33,972 nt of DNA from a virus. The stretch lies in the IMG/VR virus record IMGVR_UViG_3300009422_000806, positions 1 to 33,972 of that record; one strand, 5' to 3'. The notes under the pieces were generated by a model. That model saw nothing but the letters and a program-made list of their open reading frames with translations, had not been told where the DNA came from and ran no database searches. This document shows, one piece after another, positions 3,366 to 10,643 of this stretch; the first letter of the stretch is position 1, and every line of letters begins with the position of its first letter. The position numbers were made by a program, and so were the translations under genes.

Positions 3366-4293
3366 ATGGAAATATATTAATCCTATCCAAGGGTTAGATA
3401 CTCGGTCGTTAAACGTTATTACTGAAAAGACAACGTTACATACCCGAGAGTCTAGTAGTAAGCCTGATTGGATTAGTGCAATTAATACAGAAACCATTGT
3501 TAAGAACAAAAAGAACAGTCTTCTTATTGTTGTAGGTGAAAGCTGGTCGTACGGTGAAAACTTTGCCGGAGTAGAAAGCGGTCTTGGTAACGACAGTCTA
3601 ACATATCGAATTAATAATTCGTTTGCAGGACATTGTGCAAAAGCATTAGATAGTGATTTATTGTTATCAGCAGTTCCTGGTAACTGTAACCAAAACATGA
3701 TACACGACTTAGATAGACTGTTAGAAGAATATGCTATACACTACGAAGAAATTAAAGTAATATTACAATTAACTAGCCCGGGCAGAGATCAATCTAAAAT
3801 TGAAGATTGGTATCAAACGTTAGAACATTACAATACATTATACTCTGAAACACAAACACTAGATAAAAAAATGTCTGATGTTGAATGGTTTAAACTGTAC
3901 GACACAATGATGTTAAAAGAATTCAATCGTATCATTACATCACATACAAATGTAGAAGGTCTAGTTTGGAAGAATTTCAATCCATTTATGGTTGACTTTG
4001 CTACAGATTCGTGTACAATAGTAGTATGTCCGTGGGTTAGATTAACTGCACAGATGCATGGTAGTGTTTTTGAATTGCCTGTTATTAACGAAGCAGGTTG
4101 GTGGCAAGAGCATTATCGCAAGTATGAGAATGTAGAGAGTGATAGTAACTATATAATGAAGCAACTAGATAATTTAGAAAGTAGTAATACACTACTAGGC
4201 AACAGTAGCATTAATGGATTTCATCCTAAAGAAGAATTTCATATGCTATGGGCAACTTACTTATTAGGCAAAACGGAGTGGACAACAATATGA
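3352..4293 (+). CDS. SGNH-hydrolase-like phage protein
   Basis: A 313-residue protein with SGNH/GDSL-type blocks: LLIVVGESWSYG near residues 58-68 (block I, GES instead of GDS), PGNCNQNMI (block III Asn) and a C-terminal NGFHPKEEFH block where the usual catalytic DxxH reads N-x-x-H. The missing Asp may be supplied elsewhere, or the enzyme may work as a Ser-His dyad. It resembles the truncated protein at the window start. GTG start at 3352 overlaps the previous gene by 14 bases, an arrangement repeated at 5745 and 10630. The stop overlaps the next ATG. A hydrolase acting on cell-surface or glycan esters is plausible; the substrate is unknown. Confidence 0.65.
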   Translation: MKHFKWKYINPIQGLDTRSLNVITEKTTLHTRESSSKPDWISAINTETIVKNKKNSLLIVVGESWSYGENFAGVESGLGNDSLTYRINNSFAGHCAKALDSDLLLSAVPGNCNQNMIHDLDRLLEEYAIHYEEIKVILQLTSPGRDQSKIEDWYQTLEHYNTLYSETQTLDKKMSDVEWFKLYDTMMLKEFNRIITSHTNVEGLVWKNFNPFMVDFATDSCTIVVCPWVRLTAQMHGSVFELPVINEAGWWQEHYRKYENVESDSNYIMKQLDNLESSNTLLGNSSINGFHPKEEFHMLWATYLLGKTEWTTI

Positions 4294-5279
4294 AATACGT
4301 ACTAGTAGATACAGCAAATACTTTTTTTAGAGCAAGGCACGTTGTACGTGGCGACTTGGATACTAAAGTTGGTATGGCTTTTCACATTACATTAAACAGC
4401 GTGAAGAAAGCATGGGAAGACTTTAATGCTGATCATATTGTATTTTGTTTAGAAGGACGCAGTTGGCGTAAGGATCATTATGCTCCTTACAAAGCAAACC
4501 GTAAAGAAACTAGAGATGCAATGAATCCTTCACAGGCACAAGAAGAAAAGATCTTCTGGGAAACGTTTGATGCATTTAAAGACTTTGTTACAGACAAGAC
4601 TAACTGTACTGTTATGCAACATCCTGAGCTAGAAGCAGATGACTTAATTGCAGGTTGGGTACAACATCATCCTAATGATGAACATGTTATTATTAGTACA
4701 GATGGTGACTTTGCACAACTTATTAGTCCTACTGTAACACAATACAATGGTGTAAGTAATACTATCATTACACACGAAGGCTACTTTGACGATAAGAAGA
4801 AGAAGCCTGTAATAGATAAAAAAACAGGTTTAGAAAAGCCTGCACCTAATCCCGACTACATGTTATTTGAAAAGTGTATGCGAGGCGACACTAGTGACAA
4901 TGTGTTTAGTGCTTATCCAGGTGTACGTAAAAAAGGCACTAAGAACAAAGTAGGTCTACAAGAAGCATATGCAGATAAAGATACTAAAGGCTACAATTGG
5001 AACAACATGATGCTACAACGTTGGGTAGATCATAACGGTACAGAACATCGTGTACTAGATGATTACAATCGTAATGTTATCCTTTGTGACTTAACTGCAC
5101 AACCGCAGAACGTTAGAGACAAGATTGATAACACTATTATCGAAAATGCACAACCTAAGAATATATCACAAGTTGGGCTACGACTAATGAAGTTCTGTGC
5201 ATTATATGACATGCAACGAATTAGCGACAATGCACAATCTTATGCTAAACCATTACAAGCGAGGTATCCAGTACTATGA
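4290..5279 (+). CDS. 5'-3' exonuclease / flap nuclease (T4 RNase H-like)
   Basis: A 329-residue PIN/FEN-family nuclease. The acidic metal site is visible: D in VLVDTANTFFRARH at the N-terminus, the helical-arch segment with W-R-K and YKANR, the pair of acidic residues in PELEADDLI, S-T-D-G-D-F, and G-D-T-S-D-N preceding the helix-hairpin-helix region. This is the phage enzyme that removes RNA primers and 5' flaps during lagging-strand replication. The longer frame begins at 4248, but ATG at 4290 overlaps the preceding stop as ATGA and starts right at the first conserved strand, so it is preferred. Acts in the cytoplasm with the phage replisome. Confidence 0.88.
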   Translation: MKYVLVDTANTFFRARHVVRGDLDTKVGMAFHITLNSVKKAWEDFNADHIVFCLEGRSWRKDHYAPYKANRKETRDAMNPSQAQEEKIFWETFDAFKDFVTDKTNCTVMQHPELEADDLIAGWVQHHPNDEHVIISTDGDFAQLISPTVTQYNGVSNTIITHEGYFDDKKKKPVIDKKTGLEKPAPNPDYMLFEKCMRGDTSDNVFSAYPGVRKKGTKNKVGLQEAYADKDTKGYNWNNMMLQRWVDHNGTEHRVLDDYNRNVILCDLTAQPQNVRDKIDNTIIENAQPKNISQVGLRLMKFCALYDMQRISDNAQSYAKPLQARYPVL

Positions 5280-5758
5280 CACGACTTAAAGCAAACGAAA
5301 TATTAAAGAATAAATTTTGGATTATTGAAGATACGGATTCAAATGAAAAGAAAGGCACCTTGTCAAAAGATGCTGATAACAAATATATGTATAGTTGTGA
5401 AACAGGAACATACATGTATGACAACAAAAGTGTTGTAGAAAAGAACCTTGGAACATTAGTATGGAATAAAGCAACCGTTAGCAATTCCGAGAAAGCTGAC
5501 GACAAACTAATTTACGGTTTGCCTACAAGTGCTAGTCCGTTTAATTCAATGTTTGATGTTAAAAGAAAGTTTGGATTATTTACAAAGAGTAAAAAATCAA
5601 AGAGCTTGTATGCGGCAGGTTATTTTTGTATTCACTTTGACAAAGGTTGGGTCAAGAGTTTTTGCCCTAAAATGGTAACCTTAGAGTCATACGAATATAG
5701 AGGTCCGTTTAAAACAGAATTAGAAATGCGACAGGAGTTATCACGTGCCAACCGTTAA
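5276..5758 (+). CDS. Conserved phage protein downstream of exonuclease
   Basis: A 160-residue protein beginning MTRLKANEILKNKFWI and ending in GYFCIHFDKGWVKSFCPK and YRGPFKTELEM. I recognise this as a widely conserved hypothetical of T4-like cyanophages and related marine phages, usually carried in the same neighbourhood. It is mixed alpha/beta with two halves: an N-terminal 60 residues rich in strands and a C-terminal domain with conserved aromatic residues. No catalytic motif is evident. Start overlaps the exonuclease stop by four bases, so the two are probably co-translated. Confidence 0.82.
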   Translation: MTRLKANEILKNKFWIIEDTDSNEKKGTLSKDADNKYMYSCETGTYMYDNKSVVEKNLGTLVWNKATVSNSEKADDKLIYGLPTSASPFNSMFDVKRKFGLFTKSKKSKSLYAAGYFCIHFDKGWVKSFCPKMVTLESYEYRGPFKTELEMRQELSRANR

Positions 5759-5990
5759 CCCCTTAAATACAATTCCGTTACAGCAGTTTATTGACAAGGT
5801 CAAGACTGCTGACAACACACAAGAGAAACAAATCACTCTTAATATACGAGATGCAAAGAACTTAGCACTAACCCTAGGTAGTGTAATGAGTCGCTTACAC
5901 GGCGAATTAGAAGCTCTAGTACACCAGGAAAAGAACGCTGAAGAAGTCATTAACGTAACTGTTGATGGCGGCGGACAAGGTTGGAAGTAA
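5745..5990 (+). CDS. Small conserved phage protein, GTG start
   Basis: An 81-residue protein beginning MPTVNPLNTIPLQQFIDKVKTAD, with a helical core containing RDAKNLALTLGSVMSRLHGELEAL and a glycine-rich C-terminus. It matches a conserved small protein I know from T4-like cyanophages. GTG at 5745 is the only sensible start: it overlaps the previous gene by 14 bases and has AGGAG ten bases upstream inside that gene. The helical heptads would fit oligomerisation. Function unknown. Confidence 0.8.
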   Translation: MPTVNPLNTIPLQQFIDKVKTADNTQEKQITLNIRDAKNLALTLGSVMSRLHGELEALVHQEKNAEEVINVTVDGGGQGWK

Positions 5991-6343: not shown

Positions 6344-6739
6344 ATGAACTGGAAAGAAACCTATACTAAGGTATTCTTAAAACAGGCGGGTATTAGCATT
6401 GGTGAAAGCACGTTAAAAGAATACATGCCTCTTTGGTGGCAGAATACAAGAGAACGTTCATCCGGTGGGCTTCGCTTAACTGACGATGGACTGATGTTTC
6501 TCTCAGATAAATTGGAATTAGCAGTATACGAAATTCCGTTTCCGCCTGATTTTAAAATAACTACCCAAGTTATACTGTTCTTAGATAAGTTTATCGACTG
6601 TCCTTACTACATAACTAACAAGCATATTACTGTTACAAGCGAAAAAAAGAGCATGGAATTGCACCTTTTTAGCGGAGATGTACGCAAGTATGGACTAGCA
6701 AAAGCTCTAAAACGGACAGATGAAGAATTAAACCCTTGA
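6344..6739 (+). CDS. Conserved phage protein
   Basis: A 131-residue protein beginning MNWKETYTKVFLKQAGIS with a LKEYMPLWWQNTRE motif, SGGLRLTDDGLMFL, and a C-terminal part containing DCPYYITNKHITVTSEKKSMELHLFSGDVRKYGLAKAL. These blocks are ones I know from a conserved hypothetical in T4-like marine phages. It follows the preceding gene after a single base. No signal peptide or membrane segment. The function is not known. Confidence 0.82.
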   Translation: MNWKETYTKVFLKQAGISIGESTLKEYMPLWWQNTRERSSGGLRLTDDGLMFLSDKLELAVYEIPFPPDFKITTQVILFLDKFIDCPYYITNKHITVTSEKKSMELHLFSGDVRKYGLAKALKRTDEELNP

Positions 6740-6780: not shown

Positions 6781-6809
6781 TTGACCTTTTGGAAACGAGG
6801 TGCTATAAT
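6781..6809 (+). promoter_or_regulatory. Sigma70 promoter upstream of moxR-like gene
   Basis: TTGACC (6781-6786) and TATAAT (6804-6809) are separated by exactly 17 bases. Transcription would begin near 6816, giving a short leader. The 94-base gap 6740-6833 holds nothing else that I can identify. Confidence 0.85.
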
Positions 6810-6863
6810 ATATACATACTTAGAAATTAACGTATGGCACTGATAACAGAAGAGGAATATAGC

Positions 6864-7949
6864 ATGGAAAATATAGCAGTTAGAACAGTAAGTCCAAACT
6901 CTGCAAAGAAGAGCATTGTTCGGGCTTTTAAAAAGAAGCGTCCTATCTTTATTTGGGGAGCACCAGGTATTGGTAAGTCAGACATTGTAAGTCAAATATC
7001 AACCGAAATTGATGCTTACATGATTGACATTCGTTTATCATTATGGGATCCTACAGATATTAAAGGTATTCCGTTTTATAATTCAACATCAAATACTATG
7101 GAGTGGGCGGCACCAGCTGAACTTCCATCAAAAGCATTTGCTAAAAAACATAAGTTCATTGTGTTATTCTTAGACGAAATGAACTCAGCGGCACCAGCAG
7201 TACAAGCGGCGGCTTATCAATTAATTCTTAACCGTAAGGTTGGTACTTATGAACTACCTGATAACGTTCTTATTGTAGCGGCTGGTAACAGAGATGCTGA
7301 CAAAGGCGTTACTTATAGAATGCCTGCTCCGTTAGCAAACAGATTTGTTCACTTAGAACTTAAAGTTGATTTTGACGACTGGTTCCAGTGGGCTGTTTTA
7401 AACAACATACATAACGATGTTGTTGGTTACTTAACATTTGCAAAGAAAGACTTATACGACTTTGATCCAAAAAGTCCAAGTCGTTCATTTGCTACACCGC
7501 GTTCTTGGTCATTTGTATCCGAACTACTAGAGGATGATGATGACGAGAATACCACTACTGATTTAGTTAGTGGTACAGTTGGCGAAGGACTTGCTGTAAA
7601 GTTCATGGCCCATCGTAAAATTGCTTCTAAGCTACCTAACCCAACAGATATTTTGAACGGTAAGGTTAAGACTTTAGACACACGAGAAATCAGTGCCATG
7701 TATTCCTTGACTGTGTCTTTATGCTACGAGCTTAAAGAAGCGAACGATAAAGGCAATAAGAAGTTTGACGATATGGTTAATAACTTCTTAAGGTTCTCAA
7801 TGGACAACTTTGATACTGAATTAGTAGTAATGGGTATCAAACTAGGCCTTACACAATATCAACTTCCAATCGATCCAGACGAAGTTGAATGTTTTGATGA
7901 GTTCCATGAAAAGTACGGTAAGTATATTACTGCCGCACAGGCAAGCTAA
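6864..7949 (+). CDS. MoxR-family AAA+ ATPase
   Basis: An AAA+ ATPase of the MoxR group. Walker A is GAPGIGKSD near residue 32-40, Walker B is VLFLDEMN, and PAPLANRFVHLEL gives the sensor/arginine-finger region. MoxR proteins act as chaperone-like ATPases that work with a VWA-domain partner, and such a partner follows directly at 8057. The reading frame also allows ATG at 6834 (ten residues longer), but that start has no ribosome-binding site, whereas ATG at 6864 is preceded by AGAGGA at seven bases, so 6864 is preferred. It has its own sigma70 promoter and is closed by a hairpin terminator, so it can be expressed independently of its neighbour. The client in a phage is unknown. Confidence 0.92.
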   Translation: MENIAVRTVSPNSAKKSIVRAFKKKRPIFIWGAPGIGKSDIVSQISTEIDAYMIDIRLSLWDPTDIKGIPFYNSTSNTMEWAAPAELPSKAFAKKHKFIVLFLDEMNSAAPAVQAAAYQLILNRKVGTYELPDNVLIVAAGNRDADKGVTYRMPAPLANRFVHLELKVDFDDWFQWAVLNNIHNDVVGYLTFAKKDLYDFDPKSPSRSFATPRSWSFVSELLEDDDDENTTTDLVSGTVGEGLAVKFMAHRKIASKLPNPTDILNGKVKTLDTREISAMYSLTVSLCYELKEANDKGNKKFDDMVNNFLRFSMDNFDTELVVMGIKLGLTQYQLPIDPDEVECFDEFHEKYGKYITAAQAS

Positions 7950-7958
7950 CTAGGTTAG

Positions 7959-7990
7959 GGGTAGAGTATTTTCGGTGCTCTACCCTTATT
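7959..7990 (+). terminator. Rho-independent-type terminator after moxR-like gene
   Basis: GGGTAGAG (7959-7966) pairs perfectly with CTCTACCC (7978-7985), loop of 11 bases, followed by the T-rich run TTATTCTTT. It lies 10 bases after the ATPase stop and just before the next promoter, as expected for a terminator separating two units. Confidence 0.85.
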
Positions 7991-7996
7991 CTTTGG

Positions 7997-8025
7997 TTGA
8001 CAAACGTATTAAATAGTAGTATACT
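7997..8025 (+). promoter_or_regulatory. Sigma70 promoter upstream of VWA gene
   Basis: TTGACA (7997-8002) and TATACT (8020-8025) with a 17-base spacer. ATTAAATA (8008-8015) in the spacer resembles a late box at almost the same place as in the folE promoter. Start of the gene is at 8057. Confidence 0.85.
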
Positions 8026-8056
8026 ATAAGAACAATAAGGGAAAGGGAACAGGCAC

Positions 8057-9328
8057 ATGACATCAGCAATTACTTTAGAACCGCAAACTACAGAAATAGA
8101 AATTACCCAAGAACTTCGTGAAGAAGTATTGGATAGGATTATTGTAGCAAGAGTTGGGTTACTACTACGTCATCCATTTTTTGGTAATATGGCAACACGT
8201 CTTATTATTAAAGAAGCAAGTGATTGGTGTCCTACTGCGGCAACAGATGGTCGTCATTTGTTTTATAGTGTTCCTTTCTTTGCTAAGATGTCTAACAAAG
8301 AGATTGAGTTCGTAATTGCACATGAAATTTTGCATTGTGTATTTGATCACATGACAAGACGTGAAGATAGAGATCCACAGATACATAATATTGCGGCAGA
8401 CTATATTGTAAACAATACACTAGTACGTGATCGTATTGGAGAAAAGCCTAAAGATATTAAAATATTCCAAGACTTTAAATACGAAAAATGGACCAGCGAA
8501 GCAGTATACGATGATATCTTTGAAAAGTATGATCAAGATGAATTAGATCAATTAGGTAAACTACTTGACGAACATATTGATTGGGATAAAGATAGTGATT
8601 CCGGTCAACCTAGTCCAAAGAGCGGAGGTGGTAAAGGTAATAATCCTAAGCCTTCATATTCAAAAGAAGAACTTAAAAAGATACGTGACGAGATTAAAGA
8701 GAACATGTTGTCAGCGGCACAGGCGGCTGGTGCAGGTAATGTTCCTGGTGAAGTTGAACGTATGATTAAAGAACTTACAGAGCCTAAGATGACTTGGCGT
8801 GAGTTACTACGTATGCAGATACAAACTACTATACGTAATGATTTTACATTTAGTCGTCCTTCACGTAAGGGTTGGCACATTGGTGCAATATTACCAGGTA
8901 TGAACTTCCAAGAAACTATTGATATTTGTATTGCTATAGATATGTCAGGTTCAATTGGTTCTGTACAAGGTAAAGACTTCCTAAGTGAAGTACAAGGTAT
9001 TATGTCAGAGTACCAAGACTACAATATTAAGATTTGGTGTTTTGATACTAAGGTATATAACGAACAAGACTTTAGTGCAGATCAAGCAAGTGATATAAAC
9101 GACTACCAGCTTATGGGTGGAGGTGGTACAGACTTTACTACTAACTGGGAGTACATGAAAGAAAATGATATTCTTCCTAAGAAGTTTATTATGTTTACAG
9201 ATGGTTATCCTTGGGATAGCTGGGGTGATGAAGATTATTGCGAAACAATTTTTGTTATTCACGGACACCACGATAAAAACTTGCAGGCACCTTTTGGGGT
9301 TACTGCACATTATGAAGAAGGAAATTAG
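8057..9328 (+). CDS. Metallopeptidase-like/VWA protein, partner of the MoxR ATPase (DUF2201 type)
   Basis: A 423-residue two-domain protein. Residues about 20-130 carry a zinc-peptidase-like HEILH motif (89-93) followed by a downstream His, as in the putative metallopeptidase N-domain of the DUF2201 family. A charged, glycine/proline-rich linker (about 175-200) leads to a helical region and then a C-terminal VWA-like domain with a MIDAS: D-M-S-G-S at 295-299, the Thr in GGGGTDF, and the Asp in FTDG. MoxR ATPases and VWA proteins of this type are regularly paired and thought to assemble or insert metal into client complexes. The gene has its own promoter after the ATPase terminator. The intact HExxH leaves real protease activity possible. 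Confidence 0.9.
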   Translation: MTSAITLEPQTTEIEITQELREEVLDRIIVARVGLLLRHPFFGNMATRLIIKEASDWCPTAATDGRHLFYSVPFFAKMSNKEIEFVIAHEILHCVFDHMTRREDRDPQIHNIAADYIVNNTLVRDRIGEKPKDIKIFQDFKYEKWTSEAVYDDIFEKYDQDELDQLGKLLDEHIDWDKDSDSGQPSPKSGGGKGNNPKPSYSKEELKKIRDEIKENMLSAAQAAGAGNVPGEVERMIKELTEPKMTWRELLRMQIQTTIRNDFTFSRPSRKGWHIGAILPGMNFQETIDICIAIDMSGSIGSVQGKDFLSEVQGIMSEYQDYNIKIWCFDTKVYNEQDFSADQASDINDYQLMGGGGTDFTTNWEYMKENDILPKKFIMFTDGYPWDSWGDEDYCETIFVIHGHHDKNLQAPFGVTAHYEEGN

Positions 9329-9618
9329 TGCTGAATAAAAACAAGACCCCTAATGCATTTGATTTTTTTGATATAAGAGAATCAAAAACTGCTCCTAAAC
9401 ACTACGAGTTCTGCAATATTGCACCTCGTTATAACATGGAAGATTCTATACGTAAATGGATCGCCCATAATTTAAAGGGCAGGTATTATATTGGTAGAAC
9501 ATTATCAATAGTAGAAAACGGTCCAACTGCATATACACCAACACTTAGAATTGGATTTGAACAACATCGAGAGCTTAGTTATTTCATGTTGGCGTGTCCA
9601 CATTTAAAATACAATTAA
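9328..9618 (+). CDS. Small phage protein of unknown function
   Basis: A 96-residue protein with an acidic-aromatic N-terminus (FDFFDIRES), a central RKWIAHNLKGRYYIGRTL segment and a TLRIGFEQHRELSYFMLACPHL C-terminus, suggesting a compact alpha/beta fold. GTG at 9328 is the start: it shares one base with the preceding TAG and has AAGGA at proper spacing. The frame contains no alternative start nearby that would keep the conserved-looking N-terminus. Not recognised with confidence; clustered with phage genes of unknown role. Confidence 0.75.
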   Translation: MLNKNKTPNAFDFFDIRESKTAPKHYEFCNIAPRYNMEDSIRKWIAHNLKGRYYIGRTLSIVENGPTAYTPTLRIGFEQHRELSYFMLACPHLKYN

Positions 9619-9687: not shown

Positions 9688-10029
9688 ATGTCAGAAGATA
9701 CAACAAAGGTTGCATCAACACCAGTAGCAGGAAATGATGGCGCAAGCCAGGCTCCTATGCCGGGTGGTGCTCCAGCAACACAGGCCGGTGCAGAACTAAC
9801 TGTACAAGACCTAGGTGTTTTGAAAACTATTATCGAAGTTGCACAGAGTCGTGGAGCATTTAAAGCTACTGAACTCGAAGCAGTTGGAAAAACGTTTAAT
9901 AAATTAGACACGTTTCTAACAACGGTACAAAATCAACAAGTAGGCGAATCAGCTAACGCACCGGCACAACCGGCAAAAGCACCAGGTGAAGTATCTAGTG
10001 CAGACGCATCAGCTGTATTAGGCGCTTAA
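9688..10029 (+). CDS. Ala/Pro-rich conserved phage protein
   Basis: A 113-residue protein with disordered Ala/Gly/Pro-rich ends flanking a helical core (about residues 37-82: ELTVQDLGVLKTIIEVAQSRGAF then ELEAVGKTFNKLDTFL). The core pattern is one I know from small conserved proteins of T4-like cyanophages, often abundant and possibly virion-associated. AAGGAG gives an excellent ribosome-binding site, suggesting high expression. It precedes two other genes that are also conserved near structural genes in such phages. Exact role unknown. Confidence 0.78.
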   Translation: MSEDTTKVASTPVAGNDGASQAPMPGGAPATQAGAELTVQDLGVLKTIIEVAQSRGAFKATELEAVGKTFNKLDTFLTTVQNQQVGESANAPAQPAKAPGEVSSADASAVLGA

Positions 10030-10043
10030 CAGGAGAAAATAAA

Positions 10044-10643
10044 ATGGCTTTAAAGCACATTGGAAGACTAACTAAGACAGGACGTAAAGTTGCTGTCGCA
10101 TTTAGAACACTACCAGACGATCCAGAACATTGTTTAGTAGTACAAACAGAAAACTTATCAGATCAAGATCATGATACATTAATGAATCTAATTGAGAGTA
10201 ATGCAGGACAAACTGCTGAAGAACTAGCAGATGCAATGCAAAGGACTCAATTATCAGATGGTAGTACTATGTTACCAGCTTTTCACTCAAAAGGAAAGTT
10301 AACAAAAATACCAACTGCTGAGATTACAATGACACCTGATAATACTGCAACTATTATATTAAGTGAACTTAATAAAGTAATTGCTGACCAAAAAGGCGTT
10401 ACTATCTCTGATTTAGCAGTAGGCGGAAGCTCTGTTAAAGAAGTAGGTAGTGCAAGTGCTCCAACAACTCCAGCGGCACAAGCTGAAGCAGTTGCGGCAA
10501 AAGATGCACCGTTGACAGACGATGATCTTGCAAAGCAATATAGAGCTGATGCTGATCGACTATTTAAAGAAGCAACAGATCTACGTAAACAAGCGGACGA
10601 ACTGGCACCTGTTAAAAAGGCGACCGGCCGTGGCAAGTCGTAA
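10044..10643 (+). CDS. Conserved phage protein, possibly structural
   Basis: A 199-residue protein. The N-terminal two thirds (MALKHIGRLTKTGRKVAVAF, then DPEHCLVVQTENLSDQDHDTLMNLIES and AMQRTQLSDGSTMLPAFHSKGKL) form a folded domain I recognise as conserved in T4-like cyanophages. The last 60 residues are Ala-rich and then a charged helix (DDDLAKQYRADADRLFKEATDLRKQADEL) likely to form a coiled coil, ending in a basic tail. AGGAG precedes the ATG. Overlaps the next gene by 14 bases. Function not established; the coiled coil and context suggest a virion or assembly component. Confidence 0.8.
   Translation: MALKHIGRLTKTGRKVAVAFRTLPDDPEHCLVVQTENLSDQDHDTLMNLIESNAGQTAEELADAMQRTQLSDGSTMLPAFHSKGKLTKIPTAEITMTPDNTATIILSELNKVIADQKGVTISDLAVGGSSVKEVGSASAPTTPAAQAEAVAAKDAPLTDDDLAKQYRADADRLFKEATDLRKQADELAPVKKATGRGKS

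Follow-up and report, generated by a model that had tools for sequence, protein, structure and literature searches.

The stretch of viral DNA analysed here, positions 1–33,972 of IMG/VR virus record IMGVR_UViG_3300009422_000806 (33,972 nt, one strand; hereafter the window), encodes a MoxR-type AAA+ ATPase and, next to it, a DUF2201-type partner carrying a von Willebrand factor A (vWA) domain, with a terminator-like hairpin and a second promoter-like site between the two genes. MoxR–vWA pairs are widespread in large phages; in the lineage represented by the window the pair is core and is predicted to be insulated by a hairpin and promoter that are themselves conserved. Our preferred reading, to which we assign a probability of roughly 55%, is that the two proteins form a remodelling module that is core in T4-type jumbo-like phages, whose client is a core phage complex rather than iron enzymes, and whose partner gene is transcriptionally uncoupled from that of the ATPase.

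The comparison draws on two sets of relatives. For the lineage itself, 80 viral loci were fetched among the matches listed, the whole family comprising at least 80, and 67 dereplicated marine phage loci were kept after removal of identical partner sequences, of L051 (truncated partner) and of L059 (lacking MoxR). The second set consists of 24 named phages encoding the partner, chosen by hand from the hit lists and thus non-random.

With respect to the ATPase, the original prediction of a MoxR protein adjacent to a DUF2201-type partner was confirmed for both open reading frames (ORFs; Table 1). The product matches Pfam AAA_3 (1.2e-7, 32.1 bits against a cut-off of 27) and PHROG 1297, 'ATPase' (8e-101), and the Walker A motif is found in 67/67 relatives and a Walker B pattern in 61/67, all of which points to membership in the MoxR-type AAA+ group. 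In many relatives the protein begins at what is residue 11 in the window's MoxR, and M11 is nearly invariant, so the true start is probably 6864 rather than 6834. A predicted model (mean pLDDT, the predicted local distance difference test score, 66.4) returned NorQ as the top Foldseek row together with other MoxR proteins, the rows including CHU_0153 and CbbQ2, with many other AAA+ proteins close behind; a sequence search of the PDB returned midasin only.

The partner combines two Pfam domains, DUF2201_N (1.9e-39, residues 31–271) and the DUF2201 VWA domain (1.9e-15, residues 291–416). An intact HExxH motif and a metal-ion-dependent adhesion site (MIDAS) had been predicted, and both are present, as HEILH and DMSGS; HExxH and DxSGS each occur in 67/67 relatives. 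Among the named phages, DxSxS is found in 24/24 and HExxH in 23/24, the remaining phage being Atu_ph07 (L084, 7941–9230), in which HQILH takes the place of HExxH, a natural Glu-to-Gln difference. Residues D115 and N119 are invariant in 25/25 aligned sequences. The VWA fold is seen in the predicted model, the structural comparison resting mainly on that domain, and the PDB sequence search gave no significant match for the partner. A vWA protein with a MIDAS motif beside MoxR is what would be expected of a MoxR–vWA pair, and the fusion of an N-terminal metallopeptidase-like domain, of putative peptidase activity, to the VWA domain appears to be the form known from jumbo phages. The label 'HNH endonuclease' (PHROG 1314), which many listed phage records of the partner carry, was rejected and is probably wrong: no HNH domain appears among the Pfam matches at E ≤ 0.01, the matches being DUF2201_N and VWA instead.

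The arrangement of the two genes is strongly conserved. MoxR lies upstream of the partner on the same strand in 79 of the 80 lineage loci, the remaining locus being cut by a contig end, and the distance from MoxR to the partner match is about 0.2 kb or less in 78 loci and 1.0 kb in L041. The 5′–3′ exonuclease gene upstream served as a second landmark: both pair genes follow it in all 41 contigs (41/80 exonuclease loci) with at least 4.2 kb of downstream sequence, some of these contigs overlapping the 80-locus lineage set. A T4-type capsid gene was found in 6/14 lineage contigs and in 4/4 named relatives searched. More broadly, at E ≤ 1e-5 the partner matches 758 phage records and the ATPase 800, and a scan of bacterial genomes yielded two loci, both on contigs of metagenome-assembled genomes (MAGs). 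A 335-kb contig in a Neomarinimicrobiota MAG (L203, PBPT01000016.1) encodes a partner relative of 71% identity and is possibly a jumbo phage binned as a bacterium.

In terms of regulatory signals, a hairpin terminator and a second consensus promoter had been predicted between the genes; both were found, a 15-bp hairpin and an 11/12 promoter match, and both are conserved in relatives, their activity being predicted. The segment 7947–8000 folds at −25.3 kcal/mol (z −5.8), and scans of the window with Rfam (gathering threshold) and for tRNAs returned nothing. The promoters of MoxR and of the partner are the best two of 15 sites in a 5-kb scan, but 15 sites compares with a shuffle mean of 15.0, and 1.95 sites of 11/12 would be expected by chance per whole window. 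The window scan by itself is thus no evidence, and it is the comparison with relatives that decides.

That comparison is clear. Across the 67 loci the median gap between MoxR and the partner is 106 nt (104, 106, 104 and 103 nt in L034, L054, L060 and L071), and within 130 nt upstream of the partner a promoter of at least 10/12 occurs in 64/67 loci (shuffle mean 2.9) and of at least 11/12 in 55/67 (shuffle mean 0.05). One locus counted as lacking a 10/12 site, L031, is so classed through start-codon choice, its 12/12 promoter sitting further upstream. The MoxR promoter reaches 10/12 in 64/67 relatives and 11/12 in 20/67, with GG ahead of its TTGAC in 57/67. Consensus matches, which are not a measure of strength, are more numerous at the partner promoter than at the MoxR promoter in 47/67 loci, equal in 15 and fewer in 5. 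Defining a strong hairpin as a stem of at least 9 bp followed by a T-rich tail, we found one after MoxR in 45/67 relatives against a shuffle mean of 0.2. In a scan that also covered other ORFs of the lineage the counts were 42/67 for MoxR (45/67 with corrected coordinates) and 10/980 for other ORFs, the latter possibly including a few MoxR hairpins because coordinates were uncorrected.

The hairpin also behaves as a conserved structure. In a 12-row alignment 93.8% of pairs are kept, and both-sided changes occur at 7/11 pairs (shuffle mean 3.1; reached in 1/500 shuffles), whereas sliding one strand by 1–3 columns lowers pairing to 19–55%; because the structure was derived from a single row, the comparison with the slid controls is tilted in its favour. 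For a second group, of 13 rows, a stem of 6 pairs is predicted, 3 of them with both-sided changes. Both sets were picked by hand among loci with similar hairpins. In L041 a 951-nt insert (5002–5953), the sole real insert seen, lies between the MoxR hairpin and the DUF2201 promoter, both of which are kept, and it encodes a protein with a signal-peptide-like start.

The predicted insulation is nonetheless one-way. Within the 160 nt searched upstream of MoxR, no strong hairpin was found in any of the 67 loci, so MoxR may be read from the upstream, exonuclease side while the partner would be shielded from MoxR transcription; strong hairpins within 90 nt after the partner occur in 4/65 loci. The original description of two independently promoted units is therefore right about the second promoter and hairpin, which prove conserved, but too strong as a whole, and the suggestion that MoxR and partner levels could be set separately gains support from those predicted signals. 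Beyond the lineage, hairpins after MoxR were scored in 22 named phages, all but rV5_ev146 and Seu621 (no MoxR in the fetched piece of the latter), and strong ones follow 12/22 MoxR genes against 35/315 other ORFs; the Munch record annotates a terminator after MoxR that falls below our threshold.

The promoter class also bears on timing. Two lineage sequences were inspected, G001, which carries the window sequence at six sampled points, and G005. In both, the same promoter class precedes MoxR, the partner, a late-sigma-factor homologue, an SbcD homologue and GTP cyclohydrolase; in G005 the genes for dNMP kinase, primase and DnaB helicase have such a site as well. For MoxR and primase in G005 the score is 10/12, and ORFs called by the simple finder used are overlapped by some of the sites. 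Late-sigma, SbcD, dNMP kinase, primase and DnaB-type functions are early or middle in T4. These sites suggest early or middle expression of MoxR and partner by the host polymerase. In neither sequence do the 4 kb ahead of the capsid gene contain a promoter of this class, and a promoter of the lineage's structural genes was looked for in both and not found. The T4 late motif TATAAATA was considered and found unsupported, with 3 (G001) and 5 (G005) pre-ORF sites; permuted words average 1.7 and 2.5 sites there and reach up to 6 and 9. Separately, an 11/12 site at 97178–97206 of G001 (reverse complement), about 120 nt past the capsid gene and before a 135-aa ORF, appears to be an early-type promoter among structural genes.

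From the observed genes, motifs, conserved signals, synteny and distribution, we infer the following mode of action. In known MoxR–vWA systems a client peptide is captured at the MIDAS and reshaped with ATP (PMC7159879). By analogy, the phage MoxR would form a hexameric ring, the partner would capture a client through its MIDAS, ATP hydrolysis would alter the shape of that client, and the HExxH domain may clip it. Both genes would be expressed early or middle from host-type promoters, and the hairpin and second promoter would uncouple the partner from MoxR such that its level is set separately. The client would most likely be a core phage complex, perhaps virion-related; with low certainty, we rank virion-related clients first and replication-related ones second. 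The role of the pair had been described as not established, which holds insofar as no experimentally demonstrated client of a phage MoxR–vWA pair was found in the literature text available to us, but a 2021 paper had put forward a part in the assembly and processing of virions (PMC7824862).

Additional candidates for this module come from neighbouring genes, here called X, S and T, which were identified by comparing 22 named loci with profiles built from ten neighbours of the pair in the window. Gene X is present in 66/67 relatives and matches 10/22 named loci, directly before MoxR in 9 and separated from it by three ORFs in PA5oct (loci outside the lineage: L082, L083, L085, L094, L097 and L195–L199; PHROG 15638 in RaK2-like phages). 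A reverse profile built from eight RaK2-like and Vibrio versions picked out X as its sole match among the ORFs of the window, G001 and G005 (1.1e-6). The homology outside the lineage rests on such profiles because plain tblastn with the window's X, which returned 23 records among the matches listed, gives only E values of 0.2 or worse. Since X lies upstream of the MoxR promoter, it is probably on the upstream transcript. The S profile matches 8/22 named loci, T 10/22 and the exonuclease 4/22. Both S and T sit close behind the partner (within about 0.8 kb) in Vibrio phage 2.275.O and the RaK2-like phages; PA5oct and Atu_ph07 have them at displaced positions. By tblastn, T is found in 55 phage records (E ≤ 0.001), including Phosso at about 15 kb from the partner. 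Pfam and PHROG scans gave no match of X, S or T to a family of known function, and the PDB sequence search returned nothing for X and nothing significant for T. The 96-aa ORF that overlaps the partner's stop, perhaps co-transcribed with the partner, is present in 63/63 relatives with at least 300 nt downstream, with only weak Phosso matches outside the lineage. The three small genes, which recur around the pair in distant jumbo phages, are concrete partners to test. An extended proposal, which we consider improbable, is that X, MoxR, DUF2201, S and T would together make up one five-part ATP-driven remodelling protease of T4-type jumbo phages, with the partner kept transcriptionally separate since an excess of one subunit or early co-production would be harmful.

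Table 1. Positions of the MoxR–DUF2201 pair, its predicted signals and neighbouring genes in the window.
Feature	Position	Strand	Remarks
Sigma70-like promoter before MoxR	6781–6809	+	TTGACC-17-TATAAT, 11/12; GG before TTGAC, TG before −10
MoxR-type AAA+ ATPase	6834–7949	+	371 aa, or 361 aa from the probable start at 6864; GAPGIGKS (Walker A), 6957–6980
Intrinsic-terminator-like hairpin	7956–7988	+	15 bp; T-rich tail continues into next −35 box
Sigma70-like promoter before DUF2201 gene	7997–8025	+	TTGACA-17-TATACT, 11/12
DUF2201 protein	8057–9328	+	423 aa; N-terminal putative metallopeptidase domain and C-terminal VWA
HEILH (HExxH)	8321–8335	+	Partner residues 89–93
MIDAS DMSGS	8939–8953	+	Partner residues 295–299
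5′–3′ exonuclease gene	4248–5279	+	Upstream syntenic landmark
Gene X	6344–6739	+	131 aa; ORF before MoxR
96-aa ORF	9328–9618	+	Overlaps DUF2201 stop
Gene S	9688–10029	+	113 aa; simple composition
Gene T	10044–10643	+	199 aa

Several observations weigh against the reading of the pair as an uncoupled remodelling module acting on a core phage complex. The 67 loci are mutually related and do not represent independent trials, and neither a consensus promoter nor a hairpin proves function. Two of the 67 loci, L035 and L037, have a 10-nt gap with neither hairpin nor promoter, the L035 gap resembling a ribosome-binding site, an arrangement that reads as a natural operon form. No strong hairpin follows MoxR in any of five Schitoviridae loci, which argues that separate units are not needed everywhere (S-TIM5 likewise has none), and in rV5_ev146 the two genes lie apart on opposite strands. 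The HQILH motif of Atu_ph07 suggests that cleavage may be dispensable rather than essential everywhere. Beyond the lineage X is matched weakly (3.8e-9 to 2.5e-4), and its profile has no match in Atu_ph07, SCTP-2, phage G, 2L372D, S-TIM5 or the N4-like loci. Finally, early or middle promoters fit poorly with a purely structural role.

That last point bears directly on the leading alternative, which we consider less likely than not, in which the pair acts in virion assembly and in the processing of structural proteins. This was proposed for the pair of group 2.2 jumbo phages, with reference to Acidianus two-tailed virus (PMC7824862). Consistent with it, the pair lies near genes annotated as virion structural in RaK2, PBECO4, BF, GAP32 and Kaldavass, and the PA5oct record flags MoxR with 'ESI-MS/MS'. 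The phAPEC6 virion list (PMC7247149) contains a 49.52-kDa ATPase whose mass matches that of the PBECO4 MoxR (49.50 kDa), and the phAPEC6 virion protein gp262c (25.02 kDa, 1 peptide) would fit T by position and rough size. Moreover, one AAA ATPase peptide was reported from UFV_DC4 virions (PMC10638138), and the adjacent 'Metallopeptidase' suggests that this ATPase is the MoxR of a pair. Against this, the partner is unflagged in the PA5oct record piece, and gp264, the expected name of the phAPEC6 partner, does not occur in the available text of that paper. Thymidylate synthase also appears in the phAPEC6 list, such that carry-over is possible there, as it is in the PA5oct and UFV_DC4 preparations; in all three an ATPase is seen while the partner is not. 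The 14 virion proteins detected in S-CREM1 are described, in the available text, as structural (4), of unknown function (9) or lacking matches (1), by which MoxR is apparently absent from the 14; the authors assign the cyanophage MoxR of that study to the CGN subfamily (PMC9964418). Both pair genes carry early- or middle-type promoters, a class that the 4 kb ahead of the G001 and G005 capsid genes lack, and the pair is also found in N4-like phages, whose virions differ.

A second alternative places the pair early in infection, remodelling a replication or transcription complex of host or phage, in host takeover or in turnover of the replication complex. The promoter class shared with replication and late-sigma genes is in line with this, as are the 5′–3′ exonuclease nearby in the lineage and in 4 named phages and the polymerase, helicase, dCTP/deoxycytidylate deaminase or thymidylate synthase genes nearby in phages of 70–80 kb. 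However, neighbours vary among phage groups, proximity alone is a weak argument, and no reported client was found. We regard this role as slightly less likely than the one in virion assembly.

The uncoupling itself could be questioned if the hairpin acted mainly to stabilise the MoxR mRNA at its 3′ end, or only as an attenuator, with the partner largely read from upstream. Some T-tails are indeed weak (the window's is TTCTTTGG), and Atu_ph07, PA5oct and RaK2 have a hairpin after MoxR with no promoter of at least 10/12 before the partner. Within the lineage, however, the partner promoter is present at that level in 64/67 loci and scores at least as well as the MoxR promoter in 62/67, and such hairpins are otherwise rare (10/980 ORFs). 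On this balance the explanation seems to us improbable.

With respect to iron enzymes, the original prediction counted at least 13 of them in the island and proposed, speculatively, that the pair helps to mature metalloenzymes. The count is borne out, with 8 radical SAM and 5 Asp_Arg_Hydrox proteins (E ≤ 0.001; 38 window proteins scanned), one radical SAM protein (2002–2895, QueE-like) falling below the Pfam cut-off. The proposed link to the pair is unsupported. A correlation between pair and radical SAM cannot be made within the lineage, as the pair is invariant there. Radical SAM proteins vary from 0 to 21 per lineage contig, the contigs themselves differing widely in size, and are found over cut-off in 37/40 lineage contigs (40 of the 80 were searched) and in 15/19 searched records related to the window, two of those 19 being MAG genomes. 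In the 236.7 kb of G013, which is possibly incomplete, the pair is found and radical SAM is not.

The named phages were scored for radical SAM, Asp_Arg_Hydrox (PF05118), PF13640 and the di-iron ribonucleotide reductase (RNR) subunit, all of these phages encoding the partner. Radical SAM proteins exceed the cut-off in 6/24 and reach E ≤ 0.001 in 9/24, leaving 15/24 with none; in 7 of those 9 there is a single frame of 156–168 aa, which we take to be the size of the RNR activase. Asp_Arg_Hydrox is over cut-off in 0/24, with one weak match, PF13640 in 2/24 (three at E ≤ 0.001), and the di-iron RNR subunit occurs in 18/24. A metal-insertion chaperone such as NorQD or CoxDE would be expected to have a dedicated metalloenzyme client encoded alongside; six of the 24 (IME11, Pa2, RHph_X3_15, Roseovarius phage 1, phiFa and K479) have none of the four families. 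NorQD helps iron insertion, and the place of NorQ at the top of the Foldseek rows, the radical SAM proteins of most lineage contigs and the frequent di-iron RNR subunit speak for a maturation role, but a pair present in 41/41 contigs whatever the radical SAM count, in G013, in 15 named phages without radical SAM and in six without any of the four families makes it very unlikely that the pair serves to mature the island's radical SAM and non-haem iron enzymes. Iron-enzyme maturation as a general role is thus not supported, although most lineage contigs do carry radical SAM and a local, extra role of this kind may exist in this lineage. Apart from the pair, the window is dense in radical SAM/SPASM proteins from 12415 to 33972, along with the five Asp_Arg_Hydrox proteins, a tryptophan-halogenase-like protein and an AMP-binding fragment, and at 938–2895 encodes GTP cyclohydrolase I and the QueE-like radical SAM protein, which suggests a 7-deazaguanine pathway.

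Turning to known systems, RavA–ViaA and NorQ–NorD share with the window the combination of a MoxR AAA+ ATPase and a VWA co-chaperone, and NorQ tops the structural matches of the window's MoxR. ViaA and NorD are encoded in one operon with their ATPase and, to our knowledge, lack an HExxH peptidase domain. Among phages, a 2007 paper gave the name MoxR-type metalloprotein chaperonin to orfs 66 and 63 of 0305phi8-36 (PMC2147016). The N4 gp24/gp25-type pair of Schitoviridae likewise joins an AAA+ ATPase to a vWFA/DUF2201 protein with HExxH and MIDAS (PMC2784036), but differs in having no strong hairpin after MoxR in 5/5 loci, in the absence of detectable X, S and T, and in its spacing, the genes overlapping or nearly touching in RHph_X3_15 and IME11 and being separated by one ORF in Pa2, Presley and Roseovarius phage 1.

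Further parallels are found in jumbo phages. PA5oct belongs to the top MoxR identity group in the phage collection, its gp149 (ATPase) and gp144 ('HNH endonuclease') being 51% and 42% identical to the window's proteins, with a hairpin after MoxR and an exonuclease upstream; unlike in the window, the two genes are separated by four ORFs, of which one encodes a putative homing endonuclease. A search of open PMC literature, in the texts available, found no description of a conserved hairpin and promoter, or of X, S or T, with the pair, which does not show that none has been published. The group 2.2 jumbo phages have the same two proteins in the same domain order (named ASV44729 and ASV44728 in PMC7824862), and we read Atu_ph07 as an example of this group. 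Its MoxR and partner are each 38% identical to those of the window and a hairpin follows its MoxR; this phage differs in having HQILH for HExxH and in lacking a sigma70-like promoter of 10/12 or better ahead of the partner gene. The pair itself is therefore already described in jumbo phages, and what is added here is its conserved insulation and the recurring genes X, S and T.

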